The notes below the pieces were generated by a model, which worked only from the letters and a program-made list of their open reading frames with translations, had not been told where the DNA came from and made no database searches. From NCBI GenBank assembly GCA_013362385.1, contig JABFWC010000214.1, forward strand, positions 1 through 17,619: 17,619 nt of DNA. Reading direction: 5' to 3'. Both the position numbers and the translations under genes were made by a program. Origin of the DNA: Pseudarthrobacter sp. (lineage in GTDB: Bacteria > Actinomycetota > Actinomycetes > Actinomycetales > Micrococcaceae). The stretch's first letter is position 1, and the number at the start of each line of letters is the position of its first letter. Positions 2,478 through 12,015 of this stretch are shown here, piece by piece.

Positions 2478-3047
2478 ATGGCGTCCCCACCCGGCGGTGA
2501 AGAGCGGCCGGTGTCCGCTGCCCCGCTGCGGCCCGGCCCGTCCTATTCCGCCCCGCCGCCCATTCCGGTGGTCCCGCCGGCGCCCCGCGCCGTGCGTCTC
2601 GCCCAAAGGCTGTGGCTGGCCAGCTTCGTTACCGGCCTTGCCGTGCTGGCCGGTTCGTTCCTGACCCGCGATTCCCACCTGCAGCGGCTCCACCAGGTGG
2701 TGGCGGACATGGCACCGGGCAGCGCGGCAGAGGCCGTGGGTGCCGCTGCGGGCACCGTCTTCTGGGGAAGCCTCGCCGCCCTGCTGCTGTTCATCGTCCT
2801 CGAGGCCGCGGTGTTGACCGTGGTGACGGGGCGCCGGAAGTGGGCCCGCTGGGCCCTCATTCCCTTGCTGGCCGGCCATGCGCTGGCCCTCCTGGTGGCA
2901 TCCGACTTTCTGGTCCCGCAGGGCGACGCCGGCCGCCACGTGGTGCTGCTGTGGGCCGGTGCGCTGGTCCTGGCGTGCGCCGGCCTGGTGCTCCTGTTCC
3001 TGCCCTCCGCGGGCGCCTGGCTGACGTCCCGCAGAAGCCGGGTGTAG
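2478..3047 (+). CDS. Hypothetical four-helix membrane protein
   Basis: I do not recognise a named family. The 189-residue product has a Pro-rich, probably cytoplasmic N-terminus (about residues 1-44) and four hydrophobic segments at roughly 47-65, 94-116, 125-146 and 153-182, ending in a basic tail (SRRSRV). The loop between helices 1 and 2 (about 66-93) contains DSHLQRLHQVVADMAPGSAAE. Codon usage matches its neighbours and it starts 5 bases after the PLDc_N gene, so it looks like a real second gene of that unit. It converges on the iniC-like gene with only 12 bases between stops and no visible terminator. Function unknown. Confidence 0.75.
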   Translation: MASPPGGEERPVSAAPLRPGPSYSAPPPIPVVPPAPRAVRLAQRLWLASFVTGLAVLAGSFLTRDSHLQRLHQVVADMAPGSAAEAVGAAAGTVFWGSLAALLLFIVLEAAVLTVVTGRRKWARWALIPLLAGHALALLVASDFLVPQGDAGRHVVLLWAGALVLACAGLVLLFLPSAGAWLTSRRSRV

Positions 3048-3059
3048 GCCGCGCTCTTT

Positions 3060-4541
3060 TCAGGCCACCTTCACGCCGGACAGATCGGCAAGCATGCCCT
3101 CACAGCTGCGGACCACCACGCGGCAGGCTTCCAGGGCCGAACGGTCAATCAGCGGGTTAGCGGCCACTACACGCCACCGCGCAAGGCAGGCCCGGGCAAT
3201 GGCCGCCAGTTCGGCGGCACCCGCATCAGGGGCCAGCCCCAGCCGGAGCGGCACAGCCGTGCCCCGGCCGCCGATGAGCCGCTCTGCCTCCGCTGCCAGC
3301 TCCGCGCGCATGTCCACTCCGCCGGTCCGCAGATCCGCCAACAACCGGAGTTCGCGGAACTCGTGGGCGCCGGCCTGCAGCCGTTCCAGCGCGGCAGCCA
3401 GGGCCTCGGTATCCGGCCTGGGCCGGCTCCGCAGCAGGTTCTCTACGGCCGCCACCGCCGTGCGGGCCTTCAGTGCCTCCGCACGGGCAAGGAACTGGCG
3501 GTCCAGGAGCTCCAGCAGGGGGTTGAGGCCGCTGCGGCGTGCGAGCTCGTGCGCCAGCGGGGTGGGGTCCGCGAAGCCATTGTTGATCAGGACCGCTGCC
3601 AGGCGGATGCCGAAGAGCCCGTAGCGCTCCAGCAGGGAGGCCCTGGCCTCTTCGGTCAACCCTTGAGTGTCGCTGGAGCGGCGGAACCGGTCCGCGGAAA
3701 GCATCATCCGCTCGCGGGCGGCCCGGTCCATGCGTGCCAGCAGTTCCAGGGACTCGAAGTCGGACTGGCGCAGGGTCCGTGCGCTCTGGGCCAGGAGGCC
3801 GGCCACCGGGACCACCCCCAGAGCCAGCTTGCGCAGGTTGGGATCCTGGCTGTACCTCCCGGCGATGTCAGCGGCCGAGATCAGGGAATCTATCCGGCCG
3901 GCGCCCACTTCATCGGCACGGGACAGCACCGCGATCGCGTTCACCGTGCCGGAGCGGGCTGCGCCGTCGTCGCGGAAGGACTCGAGGAACCGCACATCGG
4001 AGGCGTGCATGTGGCGCATCAGGTAGATGACGGCGTCCGCCTCAGACGGCGCATCCCCGGGGATCAGGAAGCCGCTAGACCTCGCGGACACGTCCTGGGA
4101 CAGTGAGGCGATTCCGGGAGTATCGATAAGGGTCATGGCGTGCAGGGCGGGGGACGGCCATTCGACGTCGAGCCGGTCCACGTCCTCAGCCCGCGCCCCG
4201 TCCAGGACGAAGGCCAGGCGGCCGGCGGTCCGCTTGAGGGGCAGGATCCGCGGGTCGCCTGCCTTCGGGTACAAGGTGATCCGCGGAGTGTGTCCGTGCC
4301 GGTACCAGGTGACGATCCGCGTGCATTCCCCGGTATCGGTAGGGGCGATCTCTTCCCCCACGATGGCGTTCAGGAGCGTGGACTTGCCTGCCTTGACCAT
4401 GCCCGCGATCGCAACCCGAAGCGGTTCCGCGAGCCGCCGCTGGTACCGCTGCAGTGCCTCCACCGCCCCTGGCTCGTCCCGGTAGGCGTCCAGCGCTTCC
4501 TGCAGCAGTTCCGCGGCCCGGGCCGTGGTGGACGGCGTCAT
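3060..4541 (-). CDS. iniC: IniC-like dynamin-family GTPase
   Basis: A 493-residue dynamin-like GTPase, a length equal to my recollection of mycobacterial IniC. The G1 P-loop GMVKAGKS is at about 47-54, a G2-like Thr lies in DTGECTRIV (about 69-77), G3 DTPG is at about 140-143, and G4 appears as LSRADE (about 206-211), a deviation from NKxD. The C-terminal half is mostly helical and lacks the glycine-rich hydrophobic segment seen in the upstream partner, so it may be the non-inserting member of a pair. The ATG overlaps the iniA-like stop in ATGA (4538-4541), giving translational coupling and probably fixed stoichiometry. It is the last gene of the unit. By analogy with iniBAC it should act at the inner face of the cell membrane in envelope-stress tolerance; that role is inferred. 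Confidence 0.85.
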   Translation of the reverse strand: MTPSTTARAAELLQEALDAYRDEPGAVEALQRYQRRLAEPLRVAIAGMVKAGKSTLLNAIVGEEIAPTDTGECTRIVTWYRHGHTPRITLYPKAGDPRILPLKRTAGRLAFVLDGARAEDVDRLDVEWPSPALHAMTLIDTPGIASLSQDVSARSSGFLIPGDAPSEADAVIYLMRHMHASDVRFLESFRDDGAARSGTVNAIAVLSRADEVGAGRIDSLISAADIAGRYSQDPNLRKLALGVVPVAGLLAQSARTLRQSDFESLELLARMDRAARERMMLSADRFRRSSDTQGLTEEARASLLERYGLFGIRLAAVLINNGFADPTPLAHELARRSGLNPLLELLDRQFLARAEALKARTAVAAVENLLRSRPRPDTEALAAALERLQAGAHEFRELRLLADLRTGGVDMRAELAAEAERLIGGRGTAVPLRLGLAPDAGAAELAAIARACLARWRVVAANPLIDRSALEACRVVVRSCEGMLADLSGVKVA

Positions 4542-6421
4542 GCCACCCCCGCTGCCGTGCGGGCCCCGGGCGCGGCGTCGGCGGCTACAGCTTCCGCCGC
4601 CCGGTGGAGGGCATCCACCTTGTGGAGTTCGGCCTTGATCTCGCGGATCCGCCCTTCCTTCTCCCGTGCGTAGGAGTTGGCCGCCTTCTGCGCTGCGGAG
4701 ACCGAGTCAGCCAGCGACCGGTGGTATTCGTCCGCGATCCCCGTGAAGTGGTCCCGGATGGTCCGCTGCACCAGCCGCAGCCGGTCCTTCAGCTGCTTTC
4801 CCACCTGGAAGGTGACGTCGTCCAGCTGGCGCCGCACCAAGGTCTTTGCGTCGCCCTGGCGGCGCTTCAGCCGCGCCTCCCTGTCCTCCCGGTAGGCCTT
4901 GCGTCCGAGCAGCAGGCCGGCGCCCACGGAGAGGGGGTTGATCAGCGACATGCCGAAGATGCCGGTCAGGAGCCCGAACATCAACACCCCGCCGTACGAG
5001 CCGCGCATGCCGATCAGGACCTTCTGCACGGGGTTTACGCGGCCGGGGTCCAGCCCCGGCATCTGGTCCACGGGATCCATGGCGTCTCCCGAATCGGCAA
5101 CGTGCAGGACGGGCAGCGACACCTCGTCGGCGGCGAAGTGTTCGGCAACCTGGGCGGCCAGCCACTGGGACCGCTCACTGGTCCACACGAAGGTGTCGGA
5201 GATGGCCGCGGCCACGGACTCTTCAAGCCACTGTGAGAACTGGGGCCAGACCGGACCGGGGTCGCCTTGGTCGATGGCCGCTTCGGCCTCCCGTTGGATC
5301 CGGCGGAGGCGGTCCCGAAGGTCGTATTCCATGTCCGCAATGAGGTCGTTGATGCCGTCACTGAGCGTAAGCTGCCACCGGGCGGACCGTTTCCGCAGCT
5401 CATCGGCCTCTGACTTCGCGTGTTCCAGGGCGGCCACCATGTGCGGCGTTTCCTCCGGCTTTTCCATAGCCTCGAGCTCCGACTGCAGGGACAGCCGCAG
5501 GTTGCCGGTGACGGACAGCAGGTCCTGGCTGACGGACCGGCGCTGGAGCCGCTGCGCCTTTCCGACGATCTCGTTGCGTAGGTGGGCCACCAGCGCGGGA
5601 AAGCCGGACTCGATGTTGAGCTCGCTGTCCTGCAGCCGGGACGCCTCGAGGCGGAGGTCTGCGGACAGCGGAAACAGCGGGATGTCCGGCGCCACCGCTT
5701 TCAGGTGTTCCCGGTCCAGTTCCTCCACCCTGCGCCAGTCCGGGTAGAGGTCCGTCTTGGACAGCACCGCAGCGACGCTTGGGGTGATCCGCAGGGCCTG
5801 GCGGAGGAACCGCAGTTCCGGCTCGGTATATTCTTGGGAGGCGTCCGAGACCAACAGCATGGCGTCGGCCGTGGGCAGGGCCGTGAGCGTGGTCAATGTA
5901 TGGGCCGAGCCCATCCCGCCCACTCCGGGCGTATCGATGATGGTGAGTCCGCCGGTCAGCATCCTGCGGGGCAGGCAGACTTCCGCCGCCGCGACCTTCC
6001 TGCGGTTTCCGGGATTGCCTTGCTCGGAAACGAACACCGGGAGCTCTGCCAGGTCGATCGGTTGGCGCTCAATGGTGTTGGGATTCCCGCCGGCGTTGTC
6101 GGCCACAGGAACCAGGATCGCGGCGGACGCCGGCTCGCCATACCGGACCACTGTGGGGGCGGAGGTTGCAATGTCGTCATCAACAGGGCACACCGGAGCG
6201 TTGACCAGGGCATTGATGAGCTTGCTCTTGCCCTGCTTGAACTCCCCCACCACGACTACCCGGATACTGGGATCCTGCAGCCGGACCAGGGCCTGCTCAA
6301 GGCGTTTGCTGAGGTCGGCCCGGTCCCCGGTTCCCACCAGCTGGAGGCCTTGCTCCACGAGCCTCGCCAGCTGTCCCGCTGTTGCGGGAGCCGGCGGCCT
6401 CGCAGGTCCTGCTTCTGCCAC
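4538..6421 (-). CDS. iniA: IniA-like dynamin-family GTPase
   Basis: A 627-residue bacterial dynamin-like protein. G1 is GEFKQGKS (about 59-66), Thr at about 87-90 (TSAPT) fits G2, G3 is DTPGVG (about 163-168) and G4 is SKTD (about 221-224). A long helical stalk follows (about 290-430). At about 465-505 a Gly-rich hydrophobic stretch (LMFGLLTGIFGMSLINPLSVGAG, split here by function) resembles the membrane-inserting tip of bacterial dynamins, and it is followed by a very basic helix (EDREARLKRRQ) and C-terminal coiled coil. M. tuberculosis IniA is about 640 residues and its homologue is reported to remodel membranes. The GTG start has a strong AGGAGAGG site 7 bases upstream. The gene lies 63 bases after iniB-like and overlaps iniC-like by 4 bases, reproducing the iniB-iniA-iniC order. 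Confidence 0.88.
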   Translation of the reverse strand: MAEAGPARPPAPATAGQLARLVEQGLQLVGTGDRADLSKRLEQALVRLQDPSIRVVVVGEFKQGKSKLINALVNAPVCPVDDDIATSAPTVVRYGEPASAAILVPVADNAGGNPNTIERQPIDLAELPVFVSEQGNPGNRRKVAAAEVCLPRRMLTGGLTIIDTPGVGGMGSAHTLTTLTALPTADAMLLVSDASQEYTEPELRFLRQALRITPSVAAVLSKTDLYPDWRRVEELDREHLKAVAPDIPLFPLSADLRLEASRLQDSELNIESGFPALVAHLRNEIVGKAQRLQRRSVSQDLLSVTGNLRLSLQSELEAMEKPEETPHMVAALEHAKSEADELRKRSARWQLTLSDGINDLIADMEYDLRDRLRRIQREAEAAIDQGDPGPVWPQFSQWLEESVAAAISDTFVWTSERSQWLAAQVAEHFAADEVSLPVLHVADSGDAMDPVDQMPGLDPGRVNPVQKVLIGMRGSYGGVLMFGLLTGIFGMSLINPLSVGAGLLLGRKAYREDREARLKRRQGDAKTLVRRQLDDVTFQVGKQLKDRLRLVQRTIRDHFTGIADEYHRSLADSVSAAQKAANSYAREKEGRIREIKAELHKVDALHRAAEAVAADAAPGARTAAGVA

Positions 6422-6464
6422 AGACTGTCCTCTCCTGCCGGCGCGTCCCTTCCGGGAGCAAGCA

Positions 6465-6478
6465 TGTTCGACGGAACA
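6465..6478. repeat. GTTC-N4-GAAC palindrome between iniB-like and iniA-like
   Basis: TGTTC (6465-6469) and GAACA (6474-6478) are perfect inverted arms around GACG, in the 63-base gap between iniB-like and iniA-like. As RNA it could form a small hairpin ahead of the iniA-like ribosome-binding site. It shares the GTTC-N4-GAAC layout with the palindrome upstream of the hsp70-like gene (11900-11911), which raises the possibility of a common regulator. The site is short and could be chance. Confidence 0.35.
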
Positions 6479-6484
6479 AGCGTG

Positions 6485-7405
6485 TTACAGCGCGGTGGAG
6501 TCGTCAACCGCCGAATCGTCGATGGCCGGATGGCTGTCTGCGCCGGCATCGGTATGGCTGGAGGCGTCGTCGTTGAATTCGAAGTGGCTGTCGGCAGCCA
6601 GCGCGTTGTCTGCAAGGACGCCGGTGCCCGGGTCGTCCTGGAAGGAGTCCTCCTGGTTGAAGGAGTCCGCCACGGGGACCGGGTTGCCGGTGGAGTAGTC
6701 CTCATCGACGGGGTTGTCCGCCTCCACCAAGTCCGCCTCCACCATGACGGAGTGGTCGGGGCTGTCCCAGGTACCGGAATCGTCGTTGAGGGCATCGTCC
6801 ACGTCGAGGGCCAGATCGGTGTTGTAGGTGTCGGTGACGCTATGGGAGCCCCCGGGGTCCGCAGCATCGCCGGCAGCGGCGGACTGGTCCCCCGGAGCTA
6901 CCACCGCGGCGTTGTCGAACCACTGTTCCACGTCCCCGTCTGCCCAGATGTTCTGGCTCACGGACTGGTCGGTGAGGGCGTGGCGGTCGTCCACGATACT
7001 GGCACCTGCCGTGTAGGAGTAGTGGTTCACCACCTGGTGCAGTTGTTGGACGGCGTAAGTGTGGTCCTGGTCGTGGGCGCCGCCGAAGCCGGCAAAGCCG
7101 CCAGGGCCGCCTGCACCGCCGTCACTGCCGCTTCCCGCTGCAGCGACCGGTCCGCTCCAGCCCGGGTGGCCACTGCCGGCGACGTTGCTGCCGGTGTGGT
7201 CATCCCGGTCGAGGGAGGCGTTGACGCTGATGGGAGCATAGTCGAGGACAACAGGCATTGCAGCGTCGACGTCGGCCGGGCTGACATGGCCCAGTCCGTG
7301 GTCCGCCAGAACCCGCTCCGGGTCCTCCAGGAAGTCGCGGGTCGCCTGCGCATCGCCAAAGAGGTGCATCAGGAACTGCACAAGGTCGTTTGCGAGTGTT
7401 GGCAT
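6485..7405 (-). CDS. iniB: IniB-like acidic protein with IniB N-terminal domain
   Basis: A 306-residue protein. Residues 1-55 (LVQFLMHLFGDAQATRDFLEDPERVLADHGL and following) resemble the N-terminal domain of mycobacterial IniB, two to three amphipathic helices. Residues about 90-110 are Gly-rich. The rest is Asp-rich with little hydrophobic content and is likely disordered. I count no lysine at all and four arginines, the last at residue 141, so residues 142-306 carry no Lys or Arg. No convincing signal peptide or membrane helix is visible. The ATG at 7405 is preferred over upstream starts because GAGG lies 9 bases before it and the domain starts there. It is the first gene of the iniBAC-like unit. 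IniB's biochemical role is unknown; an adaptor for the two dynamin-like GTPases is inference. Confidence 0.8.
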   Translation of the reverse strand: MPTLANDLVQFLMHLFGDAQATRDFLEDPERVLADHGLGHVSPADVDAAMPVVLDYAPISVNASLDRDDHTGSNVAGSGHPGWSGPVAAAGSGSDGGAGGPGGFAGFGGAHDQDHTYAVQQLHQVVNHYSYTAGASIVDDRHALTDQSVSQNIWADGDVEQWFDNAAVVAPGDQSAAAGDAADPGGSHSVTDTYNTDLALDVDDALNDDSGTWDSPDHSVMVEADLVEADNPVDEDYSTGNPVPVADSFNQEDSFQDDPGTGVLADNALAADSHFEFNDDASSHTDAGADSHPAIDDSAVDDSTAL

Positions 7406-7566
7406 GTGCGTGGTCCTCACATTTTCTCGTTGGCTACGCCGGGCGCCGGTACCTGGTTGTTTCAAACCTAGGGTCGGTGCCGGGCACGGACATCGGGTCC
7501 TTCCCCCTTACCCGAAGGTGCGCTCCCGGGGCGCGCAGCCTCCTGCCGGTAGGGGCATTAGGGGCT
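7406..7566 (-). promoter_or_regulatory. Control region upstream of iniB-like gene
   Basis: This 161-base gap separates the luxR-type stop from the iniB-like start. It holds two direct copies of TAGGGG (7550-7555 and 7559-7564, 9-base period), an imperfect inverted repeat around GTTTCAAAC (core 7459-7467, arms about 7452-7472), and a hairpin with TGCGC/GCGCA arms (7519-7537). Direct repeats with a period near one helical turn are typical of sites for large LuxR regulators such as MalT. No clear -10/-35 pair was found. It is the most plausible place for an inducible iniBAC-type promoter, but that is inferred from position. Confidence 0.45.
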
Positions 7567-9711
7567 TCATTCCTGCTGGTGGTGGTCCGGGCCGAGGGCA
7601 AGGCGCAGCCGGGCCAGCAGGTCGGACCGGTTTTCCGCGCCGAGGCGGCGGCGGATCCGTGCGATGTGGTGCTCTGCTGTCCGGGGAGAGATGTAGATGG
7701 CCTCCCCGATCTCCCGGTAGGTCTTCCCCTCAAGCACCAGCCGGGCCACTTCCTTCTCCCGCTCACTCAAGCCCGACGCGTCCTGCTGTCCGCTGCTTCC
7801 AGCGGCGTCCACCGCCGCACTCCCCCGGGCAGCGGCCGTGCGCGTCCCCGCACTCGCCGGATTGCCTTGCGGGTGGAGCTCCCTGGCGCAGGAGAGCAGG
7901 CGCATCATGTCCCTGCGCTCGTCGGCGCGGGCAGCGGCGTGCCCTGCCAGCCGCGCACCTTCCCACGGCATTCCCACGGCCGCCAGCCCGCGCGCTGCCG
8001 CTTCCACGTCGGCCGGCCTGAGCCGCCCGGCGAGCACCGAAACCCAGGCCTTGCCCGCGGCGGCAAAAACCGCGGCCAGATGGTTGTGTGCCGAGGCCCT
8101 CGCCAGCGCCGCCGCGTGCGGGGCGAGCTCTGCCGGGCTTTCACCCAGGAGCGCGGCCTGGACGGCGGCCCAGTGCAGCGGGACTGACCACAGCAAAGGC
8201 TCGCCCAGCCGGCCGAGCAGCCGCCAGGCCTCTTCGATGTGGTGCGCCACGCGGCGGGTGTCACGCAACCGGGCGGCGGCGATCATCAGCTCGCCCCAGG
8301 GCAGCAGGCCGTAGAGGTCCACCGAGGTATGCAGCATGGCCTCCCGCGCGCGCTCCCACGAGCGGAGGAGCTCGGGGACATCGCCGTTCCTGCGGGCCAG
8401 TCCGACCTCCAGGGCAGCGCACAGGATCTCGTCCCGAGGGACCAGCGGCCAGTGGTTCGTCTTGGCTGCCTCGGTGGCCGCGAGCCGGGCGTCCTCGAGC
8501 TTGTCCTGCATCATGGATGCCCAGCCCTGCAGCAGGAGGAGCCTGGGCTGGGCCGCATTGCCACCCTGGTTGGCGGCAGCCGCAGCCCGGCAGACGGTTT
8601 CCGCCAGGTGCGGCTCACCGCTGTGCATGGCCAGCAGGGCTGCCAGCGCGGCGGGAGTGTCAGCCAGCGGCAGCGCCACGGCCGCCGAGTTCAGCATGTC
8701 CGAGGCATGGATCAGCACCGGAATGCCCTCCTGCGGATGATCGCCCAGGGAAGCCAGGACACCCCGGCCTGTCTGCGCCAGGGCAGCTGCCAGCAATGTG
8801 GGCGAGGCAGGCGGCGCATCCGGCCGGAAGAATGCAGCCGCGCCTTCCCGGTCGCCGGAACCGGCCAAGGCGACGACGGCGAGCGGCGCGGATGATCCGA
8901 TCCGCTCGGCGCCGAGCCATCTGTAGACGTCCGCTGCGCGCGCCAGCATGCCGCGCTGGGCCCAGACGGAGGCGGCCACGTCCGCGCCGCGGCCCAGGTC
9001 GGGTGGGTTGGTACGGACCAGGAGGCTGTCGATGATCCGGGCGGCGCCGTCCAGGTCACCTTCCCCGGACGCGGCCTGTGCGCGCCGCGCCGCGGTCCGT
9101 ACGGGATCCGCACCGGCCAGCAGCGCCTCATCGTAAAGCTGGAGGGCCAGCGCGGGGTCATACTCCAGCACGCCGTCACCGGCTTCTTCAAGCTCGGCCG
9201 CGACGCGGGGATCGGCGAGACCGCCCCTGGCGAGCTCACGGGCAAGGCTGCCCAGCGGCTGACCGGCCGAAGCAAAGACCGATACAAGCTCGCGCTCAAG
9301 GGCGTGTTTCTTGGCCACCGGCGTGACGGCGAGCAAGGCATGCCGTACGGTGCCCACCACGGTGCCGTCCGGCCTGAGGAGGCCGGTCGCCTCGGCGCGT
9401 TCCACGAGCTCGTCAAGGCTCTCCACCGAGCCGTTGCTGATCCTGTTTTGCAGGTCAGCGGGCAGCGGCCCGGGCAGGGCGAACCCGACAGAGAGGGCCA
9501 GGAGCAGCTCCCGCAACGCGGCGCTGACACCCTTCAACTGCCGGGACATCAGCTCGGCAGTGTGCGGCGGCTGCCCGTAGCGGTCCAGCTCCCCGTGATG
9601 GTCCAACTCCCCGTGGCCGTCCAGGTCACGGCGACGGTCCAGTTGCCCGTGGCGGTCCAGGTCATTGCGCAACGATGCGGCTTGGTTCGGGGGCTGGAGA
9701 TGCCCGTCCAT
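7567..9711 (-). CDS. LuxR-family transcriptional regulator with TPR-like body
   Basis: A 714-residue regulator. The C-terminus (about 648-707) is a LuxR/NarL helix-turn-helix: LSEREKEVARLVLEGKTY, then REIGEAIYISPRTAEHH and the recognition helix IARIRRRLGA. The body (about 55-620) is Ala/Leu-rich helical repeat sequence like the TPR region of MalT/LAL regulators, but I see no Walker A (GxxGxGKT) or Walker B, so the STAND ATPase module appears to be absent. Residues about 15-46 form a hexapeptide repeat. The ATG at 9711 follows the hsp70-like stop as TGACATG, suggesting coupling; an alternative ATG at 9549 would remove the repeat. In mycobacteria iniBAC is controlled by IniR (Rv0339c), a larger LuxR-type STAND protein, so this is a plausible regulator of the genes downstream. 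Confidence 0.85.
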   Translation of the reverse strand: MDGHLQPPNQAASLRNDLDRHGQLDRRRDLDGHGELDHHGELDRYGQPPHTAELMSRQLKGVSAALRELLLALSVGFALPGPLPADLQNRISNGSVESLDELVERAEATGLLRPDGTVVGTVRHALLAVTPVAKKHALERELVSVFASAGQPLGSLARELARGGLADPRVAAELEEAGDGVLEYDPALALQLYDEALLAGADPVRTAARRAQAASGEGDLDGAARIIDSLLVRTNPPDLGRGADVAASVWAQRGMLARAADVYRWLGAERIGSSAPLAVVALAGSGDREGAAAFFRPDAPPASPTLLAAALAQTGRGVLASLGDHPQEGIPVLIHASDMLNSAAVALPLADTPAALAALLAMHSGEPHLAETVCRAAAAANQGGNAAQPRLLLLQGWASMMQDKLEDARLAATEAAKTNHWPLVPRDEILCAALEVGLARRNGDVPELLRSWERAREAMLHTSVDLYGLLPWGELMIAAARLRDTRRVAHHIEEAWRLLGRLGEPLLWSVPLHWAAVQAALLGESPAELAPHAAALARASAHNHLAAVFAAAGKAWVSVLAGRLRPADVEAAARGLAAVGMPWEGARLAGHAAARADERRDMMRLLSCARELHPQGNPASAGTRTAAARGSAAVDAAGSSGQQDASGLSEREKEVARLVLEGKTYREIGEAIYISPRTAEHHIARIRRRLGAENRSDLLARLRLALGPDHHQQE
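9577..9666 (-). repeat. Five 18-bp tandem repeats coding xxLDxx hexapeptides
   Basis: Five imperfect 18-base units at 9577-9594, 9595-9612, 9613-9630, 9631-9648 and 9649-9666 share the core GTCCA. On the - strand they encode NDLDRH, GQLDRR, RDLDGH, GELDHH and GELDRY, each with central Leu-Asp. The repeat is in frame with the LuxR-type gene near its N-terminus. Copy number could vary between strains without a frameshift. Confidence 0.85.
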
Positions 9712-9712
9712 G

Positions 9713-11824
9713 TCAGGCCGCCGGAATGGTGGTCAGGGCCGTGTCACTGGCGGTCGCGGTGGATGCGGGGACGGAGGATTGCTCCGGGGTGGGCGTAGCC
9801 GTCGGGCCGCTGGTGGGCTCGGGGGCCGGTTCCGGGGACGTGGCCGGGTCCGTGGGGGCCGGGTCGGTGGCGGCCGGATCGGTCGGGGCCGGCGACGCTG
9901 TGGCAGGGTCGGTTGTGGTGGCCGGCTCAGGAGTTGCCGTGTCGGTGCCGGTCGTCGTCCCGCCCGGCGTCGCTTCAGGCGTACCGGAGTCGGTTGGCCC
10001 GGGCTGGCTGGCGCCGGCGGTTGGGGTACCGGGCCCCGTGGTGCCGGTGTCCGTGGGCGTGGCGGCATCCGTACCGCCCGACCCGCCCTGGGCGGAGTCG
10101 AGGACGACGCCGGTTCCCGTCCCGGCGGACCCGCCCGGCGAACCGGAGGCGCCGGTTCCGTCCGTCACGGCTCCGGCGGCCACGGCTCCGGCGGCGACGG
10201 CACCCTTTTCCGGGACGGATGCCTCGACCCCTGCCGGGACGTCTACCCGGTTCCGGCTGGCGCTGGCTTCGATGCCCGCCAGCGGCAGCGGCGCCAAGTT
10301 GCTAACGGCGGCAACCGGCCCGGCGGCGCCGTCCGCCTCGGCACTGGGCACGGTGGGATCCGCGGTGGGCCCGCCGTCGGACACGTCTGAGCCGCCGGTG
10401 GTGCTGGCACCCGCCTGCGGCACGAACACCGCGGTGAGATTGCCGAAGCCGTCCGGACTCTGCGCCGCGGTGGCGGTAAGGACCGTCAAGAGGGCCGCGG
10501 CAGCGGCGACGGCAGTCAGTCGCACGGTGGGCGTGGGGGCGTGGGCGCCCCGCTGCCGGTGCGCCCCGGCGGAAAGGCCTGCAAGGCTGACCGGTATTCC
10601 CGCCGGCGCCGAGGTCCGGCGGGACAAGCCGGGGCGCAGCGGGATCTCCGGTCCCGGCGCAGCCCCGGAAAGTCCGACGCCGGATCGGGTGCCTTCCCCG
10701 GCAGCCCCGGGTTCCGTCCCCGATGCGAGGGCGGCTGCTGCCTCGTGCTCGAGGAGGGCGGCCACAGCCGCCCCAAGGCAGATGGAGGACTTGGGGTCGG
10801 CGTCGACGGCGGTGGGCCGGTCCAGCTGTTCCGACACGAGCTGCGCCACCAGGGGGATGCGGGAGGACCCGCCAATCAGCAGCACCGCCGAGAGGTCTGC
10901 CGGCTCCAGCTGCAGCTGGGACAGCGATTGTTCCACGGCGTCCACGGTCTCGCGGAGCGGTTCCTCGATAAGTGCCTCGAAGTCGGCGCGGACCAGGCGG
11001 ACCTGCTGCTGGATTCCGGGGAGGAGCACCTGGATGCTGGCCTCACTGTCCGCGGACAGCGCCTCCTTGGCTTCCACGCACTCGCGTTGCAGCCTGCTCA
11101 GCGCGGACAGGACCGCAGGGTCCTGCAGGTCCAGGCCGGCAATGGCGTCGCCGGTGTGGCTGGCGACGTAGCGGAAGACTGCGGCGTCGAAATCCGCGCC
11201 GCCGAGGTCTTCGATCCCGTCGGGCCGCCCTGCCAGTTCGAAGCGGCTGCTGCCGGTCTTCCGGAGCACGGCAGTGTCGAAGGTGCCCCCGCCGAGGTCG
11301 TACACGGCGATGGTGCTGCCGTCCTCCACCCGCACCTGCGAGGCGTAGTGCAGTGCGGCGGCAACGGGCTCGGAAAGGAGGGTGACCTCTGCCAGGCCGT
11401 GGGCGGCGAGGGCGTCCCGGATGACGGAGAGCCGGTGGTTGCCCCAGGCCGCGGGGTGGGTCAGGTAGATGGCCGACGCGGGTTCACCCTCGCGTTCGGC
11501 CGCGCGGTCGGCCACCCAGCGCGCCATGGTGGCGAAAACGTCCTCGGGGGAAACGGTTAGCCGGCCGAGGGAGAAGGGAACGTCGTCACCGATCCGGCGC
11601 TTGAATTCGCGTACCACCCGGGTTGGTGCATCCAGCCAGCGGCGTTCGGCAGCTTCCCCCACGAGGACGGGACCCTCCTCCGGGTAGTACACCACGGACG
11701 GCACAGAGGTTCCCCGGAGGCCCAGCGGCAGGCACTCCGGAACAGGTGAAGCTCCCTGGTTGAAACGCACTACGGCGGCCGCCGTGAAACTGGTCCCGAC
11801 GTCAACGGCGAGAACGTAGCTCAT
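9713..11824 (-). CDS. Membrane-anchored Hsp70-type ATPase with extracytoplasmic tail
   Basis: A 703-residue protein. Residues 1-360 form an actin/Hsp70 ATPase fold: phosphate-1 VDVGTSFTAA (about 7-16), phosphate-2 VYDLGGGTFD (about 174-183), and the adenosine motif LLIGGSSRIPLV (about 315-326). The usual DnaK linker and beta-sandwich substrate domain are missing. A basic linker (about 398-435) leads to one hydrophobic helix (about 434-454), then about 240 residues rich in Pro, Thr, Ala, Ser, Gly and Asp. Basic residues before the helix predict the ATPase inside and the tail outside. The ATG at 11824 has GAGG 5 bases upstream; an ATG at 11869 is in frame but lacks that support. One base separates it from the luxR-type gene. 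It is not a general DnaK; a sensor role is inferred. Confidence 0.88.
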   Translation of the reverse strand: MSYVLAVDVGTSFTAAAVVRFNQGASPVPECLPLGLRGTSVPSVVYYPEEGPVLVGEAAERRWLDAPTRVVREFKRRIGDDVPFSLGRLTVSPEDVFATMARWVADRAAEREGEPASAIYLTHPAAWGNHRLSVIRDALAAHGLAEVTLLSEPVAAALHYASQVRVEDGSTIAVYDLGGGTFDTAVLRKTGSSRFELAGRPDGIEDLGGADFDAAVFRYVASHTGDAIAGLDLQDPAVLSALSRLQRECVEAKEALSADSEASIQVLLPGIQQQVRLVRADFEALIEEPLRETVDAVEQSLSQLQLEPADLSAVLLIGGSSRIPLVAQLVSEQLDRPTAVDADPKSSICLGAAVAALLEHEAAAALASGTEPGAAGEGTRSGVGLSGAAPGPEIPLRPGLSRRTSAPAGIPVSLAGLSAGAHRQRGAHAPTPTVRLTAVAAAAALLTVLTATAAQSPDGFGNLTAVFVPQAGASTTGGSDVSDGGPTADPTVPSAEADGAAGPVAAVSNLAPLPLAGIEASASRNRVDVPAGVEASVPEKGAVAAGAVAAGAVTDGTGASGSPGGSAGTGTGVVLDSAQGGSGGTDAATPTDTGTTGPGTPTAGASQPGPTDSGTPEATPGGTTTGTDTATPEPATTTDPATASPAPTDPAATDPAPTDPATSPEPAPEPTSGPTATPTPEQSSVPASTATASDTALTTIPAA
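9843..9902 (-). repeat. Four 15-bp repeats coding TDPAx pentapeptides
   Basis: Units at 9843-9857, 9858-9872, 9873-9887 and 9888-9902 are imperfect copies beginning GCCGG. On the - strand they encode a run of TDPA-type pentapeptides in the predicted outside tail of the hsp70-like protein, the last unit being degenerate. Such Pro/Thr repeats typically form extended wall-spanning stalks. Confidence 0.7.
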
Positions 11825-11886
11825 GGGTACCTCGGAAAAGGCTGGTGTTTCGCCTGCAAGCTTCATCACAGGGGAACGTCACCAAC

Positions 11887-11925
11887 GTAGCATTACCGGG
11901 TTCCCGGGAACACCCCTGTTGCTAC
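11887..11925. promoter_or_regulatory. Nested palindrome upstream of the hsp70-like gene
   Basis: GTTCCCGGGAAC (11900-11911) is a perfect 12-base palindrome. It is nested within a second pair of arms, GTAGCA (11887-11892) and TGCTAC (11920-11925), with almost the same centre. It lies 63-101 bases upstream of the hsp70-like start, where an operator would be expected for the block at 3060-11824. On the coding (-) strand, GGTAATGCTACG just downstream of the core offers a weak -10-like sequence. No -35 is clear. Confidence 0.5.
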
Positions 11926-11947
11926 ATCGAATGGTTTTTTGTGGGCG

Positions 11948-11968
11948 CCGCCGTGCCGTGTGCGGCGG
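11948..11968 (-). terminator. Candidate hairpin terminator after ccsB
   Basis: CCGCCG (11948-11953) and CGGCGG (11963-11968) form a 6-bp GC stem with a 9-base loop, about 50 bases beyond the ccsB stop in its direction of transcription. A smaller hairpin with GCCCTG/CAGGGC arms is at 11993-12006. Neither is followed by a T-run on the - strand, so termination is only suggested by position between two - strand units. Confidence 0.3.
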
Positions 11969-12015
11969 TCCGCATCATCCGGGCTGCAGGAAGCCCTGTC
12001 CAGGGCCCGACCGGC

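Follow-up and report, generated by a model that had tools for sequence, protein, structure and literature searches.

An IniR-iniBAC variant with an ATPase-less regulator and a linked Hsp70-like gene in Pseudarthrobacter sp.

Gene content of the block

The window, that is, the whole 17,619-nucleotide stretch of Pseudarthrobacter sp. DNA analysed here (contig JABFWC010000214.1 of GenBank assembly GCA_013362385.1), is the entire contig of an incomplete assembly (genome 64% complete). Between menA and the ccs genes, a position shared across the genus, it carries five minus-strand open reading frames at 9713-11824, 7567-9711, 6485-7405, 4538-6421 and 3060-4541, encoding an Hsp70-like protein, an IniR-like regulator and IniB-, IniA- and IniC-like proteins, respectively. 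The gaps are 1 base (hsp70/iniR), 161 bases (iniR/iniB) and 63 bases (iniB/iniA), and iniA and iniC overlap by 4 bases, exactly as an earlier note on this DNA had described the row. Expression of iniBAC is the classic mycobacterial response to cell-wall inhibitors, and the block is a variant of the known IniR-iniBAC system, with an IniR devoid of its ATPase domain, a putative membrane partner built on an Hsp70 nucleotide-binding domain (NBD), a predicted common operator and a sixth gene. Together the six genes probably form a kit that senses cell-envelope damage and then turns on membrane-cutting proteins. The system as such was known before; in the literature searched we met neither a general partnership with Hsp70, nor an IniR without its ATPase, nor the operator. 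Within the accessible parts of that literature, to which subscription journals contributed little, we found no CCCCTA operator and no Hsp70 partner of IniR beyond one sentence in PMC5760070.

The gene at 7567..9711 (minus strand), called luxR in the earlier note, encodes 714 amino acids and matches NF038181 (1e-111; 374.6 bits over profile positions 218-825 of 827, below the equivalog cut-off of 750). Its product is homologous to IniR, which is known to regulate iniBAC in mycobacteria, so that the LuxR protein proposed as a controller stands, as the counterpart of IniR and not as an extra part beyond the studied iniBAC system. No N-terminal AAA+ ATPase domain with a Walker A motif was found in this protein, and the main copies in its relatives within the genus likewise have no Walker A. 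In the predicted structure, the start is disordered and the protein is folded from residue 49, where it is helical; a helical superhelix at about residues 155-616 resembles MalT domain III, which was also the best match of the sensor part among solved structures, and a LuxR-type helix-turn-helix (HTH) domain lies at 647-698. The two features taken to mark membership, a MalT-domain-III-like sensor and a LuxR HTH, are thus both present, whereas the P-loop NTPase domain of MalT-type STAND regulators is not. An alternative start at residue 55 is possible, giving a protein of 660 amino acids (P0001). In M. tuberculosis, IniR binds the iniBAC promoter, is required for induction and acts on iniBAC only, according to the accessible part of PMC5760070. 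Note that in the IniR relatives of L216 and L221 (Microbacterium oleivorans) Walker A is altered to GPAGSDKT/S, and that their stretches gave no match to hsp70 or to an iniA/iniC pair; they are perhaps orphaned regulators. L230 (Arthrobacter sp. H41) has, behind iniR, two short frames whose match is confined to the HTH end of IniR, as if the DNA-binding part had been duplicated.

The hsp70-like gene (9713..11824, minus strand) encodes 703 amino acids (PF00012, 3e-46). Its NBD spans about residues 1-370 with the catalytic residues intact, followed by a predicted membrane helix at about 433-455 and a disordered tail of about 250 amino acids rich in Pro, Thr, Ala and Gly, which probably lies outside the cell. 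The substrate-binding domain is absent: the PF00012 match ends at profile position 372 of 599, beyond which the predicted structure contains one helix and the disordered tail, the NBD and that helix being the sole folded parts. The window protein thus shares with DnaK chaperones an NBD with catalytic residues, but not their substrate-binding domain. The upstream region at 11825..12015 (minus strand) contains a stretch conserved in the genus, ATTCGATGTAGCAAC...AATGCTACGTTGGT, as found by comparison of 24 loci, which is perhaps a separate promoter; L083 and L085 do not have it. A different architecture was seen in L101 (934-3393), where a beta-propeller (Vgb_lyase/YNCE-like) follows the NBD of an Hsp70-like protein adjoining iniC.

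The remaining minus-strand genes have the order of an iniBAC operon, in which a protein with an IniB N-terminal domain is followed by IniA and then IniC. The iniB-like gene (6485..7405, minus strand) encodes 306 amino acids, scores 62.4 bits against IniB_NTERM NF038175 (cut-off 40), and specifies a strongly acidic protein with 58 acidic and 4 basic residues, in agreement with the acidic partner of the earlier note. The iniA-like gene (4538..6421, minus strand; 627 amino acids; PF00350) has a product that matches the solved IniA structure 6j72 at 1.5e-143 over residues 16-602, and the iniC-like gene (3060..4541, minus strand) encodes 493 amino acids (PF00350, 2.4e-13). Dynamin_N is present in both, confirming the two dynamin-like GTPases proposed previously. 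IniA and IniC also match, weakly, the PADLOC models of the LeoABC bacterial dynamins, at 1.8e-7 to 3.5e-15; however, the window regulator is an IniR relative and IniA 6j72 is far closer, and a defence system gained little support from the weak LeoA/LeoBC matches of the two GTPases. Note that a strong hairpin, GCCCGGCAGGAGG...CCTCCTGCCGGGC, lies between iniB and iniA in many of L063-L084 and is perhaps a partial terminator; the window gap at 6422-6484 seems to retain one hairpin arm only.

The sixth member, a membrane protein gene at 2478..3047 on the plus strand and convergent to iniC, encodes 189 amino acids with a Pro-rich N-terminus and about four hydrophobic stretches, and had no match among Pfam or NCBIfam models. 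Its family was detected in 95 of 189 iniR loci and in none of 15 loci where the block is missing, and it remains with the block where menA and ccs do not (L083, L085-L090); L073 is the sole main-copy locus of the genus without it. The five-gene unit of the earlier note is therefore better counted as six genes. The sixth-gene family was not found in f22 or f58 loci, indicating that it is not part of the system everywhere.

Distribution of the hsp70-iniR pair

IniR relatives, counted at E <= 1e-20 in overlapping genome samples of the class, order and phylum, were present in 38 of 394 class genomes, 20 of 396 order genomes, 174 of 397 genomes from the order of G315, and 16 of 396 phylum genomes. 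We collected 189 iniR loci, reduced them to 182 non-redundant loci by removing 7 duplicates, and then to 175 by dropping L134, L135, L082, L079, L205, L242 and L246, which have contig ends or broken frames. The sample is non-random, as it follows profile matches plus one scan favouring relatives of a Microbacterium IniR, from which the best 80 of 398 loci were taken; of the 174 positive genomes in the order of G315, 40 were added for spread over genera, and the fragments G463, G499 and G562 were not among the stretches taken from the order sample.

In 155 of the 175 loci, iniR is immediately preceded on its own strand by an Hsp70-like gene (at most 900 bases from the IniR domain), frequently with an overlap or a spacing of a few bases. 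At least a partial Hsp70 match was present in 169 of the 175 stretches, and both iniA and iniC in 160. The hsp70-iniR pairing is thus the rule across the actinobacterial loci examined. The earlier note had proposed a search for co-occurrence of these families across Actinomycetota, which these counts bear out, and had named as a counter-argument a separation of hsp70 and luxR from iniBAC in relatives, which the adjacency contradicts. On the other hand, the hsp70-like gene, which to the note looked different from the studied version, is no peculiarity of this genome; hsp70 is the usual neighbour, including in 17 of 21 loci of genus g34, where it lies directly upstream of IniRs that exceed the NF038181 cut-off. 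We take g34 to be Mycobacterium. Five g34 loci (L098, L099, L118, L119 and L124) have a further Hsp70 copy downstream of iniR, which agrees with one sentence in section 10 of PMC5760070 on a dnaK-like gene downstream of iniR in M. smegmatis. That gene resembles the window Hsp70 in being an Hsp70 relative linked to iniR, but it was not analysed in the accessible part of that paper, and the window gene lies upstream and has intact catalytic residues.

Within the genus, iniR (matched over most of its length), iniA and hsp70 were present in the same 21 of 36 other genomes and missing from the same 15, a joint behaviour that upholds the unit proposed earlier. Note that G030, one of the 21, has broken frames in several genes. 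The block hsp70 is at least 63% identical in these 21 genomes, and a second Hsp70, about 29% identical, was found in all 36 and is probably the housekeeping DnaK. In the 15 block-less genomes, ccsB was present in 15 and the PLDc_N gene that lies beside the block elsewhere in 13, two stretches stopping at contig ends, and no Hsp70, IniR or sixth-gene match was found in these empty-site loci (243 kb). The placement by the ccs genes, regarded as unusual in the earlier note, is common to the genus, but it carries little weight, since the other copies (L083, L085-L090) lie elsewhere and the flanking menA and ccs are not kept there. One of these, L083 (G033:C1:144000-162000), is a second full block copy in G033.

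An apparent hsp70-iniR fusion in L239 (Arthrobacter sp. Br18), a 1448-amino-acid frame, was rejected, as the draft has a run of N and an overlapping stop/start precedes the IniR part; L239 was counted as non-adjacent, which makes 155 slightly low, and no other frame combined Hsp70 and IniR domains. In addition, L095, L100 and L191 (genus g61) contain more than one IniR-like or Hsp70-like frame in series.

The window shares with the Mycobacterium IniR-iniBAC system (Rv0339c and MMAR_0612, as described in the accessible part of PMC5760070) an IniR sensor with HTH, the IniB N-terminal domain and the dynamin-like IniA and IniC. Unlike Mycobacterium IniR, the window regulator has no AAA+ domain (NF038181 218-825 only), and the window differs further in its linked Hsp70 with intact catalytic residues, its sixth gene and its menA/ccs placement. 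Its genes are unidirectional, whereas hsp70-iniR and iniB-iniA-iniC diverge in g34 loci.

CCCCTA boxes upstream of iniB

Two exact CCCCTA boxes on the minus strand precede iniB in the window, box 1 at 7559..7564 and box 2 at 7550..7555, 9 bases after box 1. A third, inverted box at 7504..7510 is weakened to TAAGGGG, where 19 of 23 compared relatives have TAGGGG. IniB N-terminal domains in 170 of the 182 loci provided 200 upstream regions, and CCCCTA or its complement occurred at least once in 173 and at least twice in 143 of these. With expected counts derived from the remainder of the same loci, we found 149 boxes in 56 regions of Micrococcaceae (1.7 expected), 128 in 51 of f22, the family that holds the Mycobacterium-type genus (1.2 expected), and 64 in 30 of f58/Pseudonocardiaceae (0.3 expected), which corresponds to enrichments of 87 to 196 times; Microbacteriaceae/f19 had 23 boxes in 27 regions (0.5 expected). 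Direct repeats 8 or 9 bases apart were among the commonest spacings in Micrococcaceae, f22 and f58/Pseudonocardiaceae. The same boxes accompany ATPase-bearing and ATPase-less IniRs, and Mycobacterium-type loci have them upstream of iniB as the window does. This conservation across several families points to the boxes, box 1 among them, as the predicted operator to which IniR would bind. IniR proper is characterised by binding of the iniBAC promoter and a response to trehalose, and for the window protein the common boxes are an indirect sign of such binding. The passages of the PMC5760070 main text on 'motif' and 'binding site' give no operator, and the accessible part of a later paper reports a different site, that of HpoR (PMC13413693).

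The tandem box pair occurred once in 2.46 Mb of the window's own genome, as did a reversed control pattern, and in the genus it was present in 17 of 22 iniR-bearing against 2 of 15 iniR-lacking genomes, with 14 of 33 matches at iniB. Since the reversed control matches as often, the position of the boxes rather than their mere presence carries weight. CCCCTA was not enriched over the whole window (4 found, 4.59 expected), CCCCTA...TAGGGG across 30-48 bases had no match in the own genome, where the third box is weakened, and a repeat search of two intergenic stretches gave nothing. A candidate second regulon target at a CCCCTAACTCCCCTA site was rejected, as it was read as the own operator of an adjoining gene, LysR-type by eye, with an ATAGGGGAT...TCCCCTAT-like pattern. 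Note that this site is conserved in five iniR-bearing genomes (L283, L286, L287, L300 and L306), where it is probably the operator of the LysR-looking gene.

Boxes within 300 bases upstream of hsp70 were found in 25 of 26 f22 loci, 20 of 21 f58 loci and 4 of 27 loci of f1, the window's family; these counts cover loci with coded labels only. In f22 and f58 loci, hsp70 and iniB are often divergent. Because boxes precede iniB but rarely hsp70 in the window's family, iniBAC is likely to be the induced unit there; hsp70-iniR would be separately expressed, and we do not expect all five genes to rise together.

Possible role of the Hsp70-like protein

We consider it somewhat more probable than its opposite that the block is an IniR-iniBAC envelope-stress variant with an Hsp70-IniR regulator unit. 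Under this explanation, hsp70 and iniR, 1 base apart, would form the regulator unit; the Hsp70-like protein would sit in the membrane with its NBD inside and its tail in the wall, and the IniR-like protein would bind the CCCCTA boxes before iniB. Envelope damage, perceived as a wall or sugar signal, may alter the nucleotide state of Hsp70 and/or the MalT-like sensor domain, and IniR, thereby released or activated, would turn on iniB-iniA-iniC, whose two dynamin-like GTPases might then remodel or repair the membrane. The earlier proposal of an envelope-stress system controlled by Hsp70 and LuxR proteins thus gains from the conserved unit and from IniR homology, the controlling part of Hsp70 being presumptive. 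A broader reading, which we hold only tentatively and at less than even confidence, is that an Hsp70 NBD, without the chaperone half and membrane-tied in most lineages, serves IniR across actinobacteria as a dedicated signalling partner; it would act as a transmembrane switch gating a transcription factor, and the ATPase would be retained by IniR, by Hsp70, by both or by neither, depending on the lineage. An Hsp70 partner of IniR is in itself well supported and barely described. The route from damage to IniR is not settled in the literature searched; a specific candidate for the sensor that is missing there is the conserved Hsp70-like partner, which soil bacteria have alongside a simpler regulator devoid of the ATPase. 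The regulon can be tested directly through the common CCCCTA boxes, and the sixth gene adds a part that is not yet characterised. A role as a signalling switch rather than a chaperone, should Hsp70 prove to have it, would be unusual for the Hsp70 family.

Several observations weigh against the explanation by an Hsp70-IniR regulator unit. A hydrophobic helix follows the NBD in 130 of the 155 adjacent Hsp70s, but no membrane helix was detected in the other 25 (19 f58/Pseudonocardiaceae, 4 f53, 1 Micromonosporaceae and 1 f19), and all adjacent Hsp70s of f22 and f58 have changes in their NBD residues; neither anchoring nor ATP turnover is thus universal, and the 'outside-sensing' Hsp70 of the earlier note, in keeping with the predicted helix and tail of the window protein, cannot be generalised. 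L129, a Mycobacterium-type locus, has no Hsp70 in its stretch, and M. tuberculosis, whose IniR works, is not known to have one beside iniR. Hsp70 lies by iniC or beyond iniA, and not by iniR, in L101, L127, L130, L093, L094 and L133, and six loci from outside the class have it in the stretch, though not adjacent to iniR. Furthermore, f31 is nearly box-free (2 in 8 regions, 0.1 expected), the tandem box pair is no rarity over whole genomes, in each of which the reversed pattern gave 0 to 4 matches, and the literature search gave no experiment on the Hsp70-like protein.

The Hsp70 positions next to iniA and iniC fit an effector, namely, a nucleotide switch in the membrane that builds up or takes apart the dynamin coats of IniA/IniC, with IniR relying solely on its MalT-like sensor. 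The L101 Hsp70 gene begins 6 bases past iniC; L127 and L130 have it tail to tail with iniC, and L093, L094 and L133 have it beyond iniA; in 5 of the 6 loci outside the class, iniA, iniC and Hsp70 occur together while iniR is not beside Hsp70, the sixth, L311, having an Hsp70 fragment and no iniA or iniC match. The formation of M. tuberculosis IniR multimers without added trehalose or ATP (section 16 of PMC5760070, a paper accessible in part) is also consistent with an IniR acting alone. However, in 155 of 175 loci iniR has Hsp70 immediately in front of it on the same strand, in many cases a few bases away or with an overlap, while iniA and iniC switch strand and position, and we regard the effector as rather unlikely. 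A dedicated chaperone for IniR or IniB, suggested by Hsp70 family membership and gene order, is improbable, since the window protein has no substrate-binding domain, the model shows no folded part in it beyond the NBD and one helix, and the NBD is altered in many partners. Least credible of all is hitchhiking, in which the genes would be kept together by inheritance or common transfer without joint function: the block does seem to be gained or lost whole, and G033 has a second copy, but the pairing is kept across families where the flanking menA and ccs are not, and the genes are jointly absent from 15 genus genomes. In a neighbouring context, the accessible text on NTP-dependent conflict systems (PMC7159879) likewise describes a GTPase and an Hsp70 without a peptide-binding domain in one neighbourhood, but with other GTPase families and effectors and no IniR or iniBAC.

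The Hsp70 domain might, in the lineage to which the window belongs, have taken over the function of the AAA+ ATPase that IniR lost, an exchange of nucleotide switches. When 'intact' Hsp70 was defined by six core positions (D8, K75, E152, D176, G178 and T181), the raw counts over adjacent pairs fit replacement: of the pairs with Walker A, 73 had an altered and 29 an intact Hsp70; of those without it, 46 had an intact and 5 an altered Hsp70; and 2 combined a decayed Walker A with an altered Hsp70. A further 20 loci had no adjacent Hsp70. The 46 comprise 45 Micrococcaceae and Compostimonas suwonensis (L236), whose nearest tree rows have Walker A, and the main copy of G033 is ATPase-less with an intact Hsp70 while its second copy L083 is the reverse. 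However, few evolutionary events underlie these counts, and the tree test gave no support, with too few pairs to be decisive or to reach significance: among 5 independent pairs on the IniR tree differing in Walker A, Hsp70 showed no difference in 4.8 on average, the opposite in 0.2 and the same in 0, and with any Hsp70 of the locus 8 pairs gave 1.8 same, 0.6 other and 5.6 no difference. Moreover, L096, L097, L192 and L194 have an IniR without Walker A beside an altered Hsp70, both switches being apparently lost. We therefore regard replacement as doubtful. Note that L219 and L227 (Micrococcaceae) retain both Walker A and an intact Hsp70, that the IniR of L083 bears the ATPase (GVRGSGKT) and the Hsp70 of that locus is altered in its phosphate-2 motif, and that in L244, the fifth locus with neither, an NBD stretch is missing (profile 219-286 unmatched), perhaps through a sequence fault.

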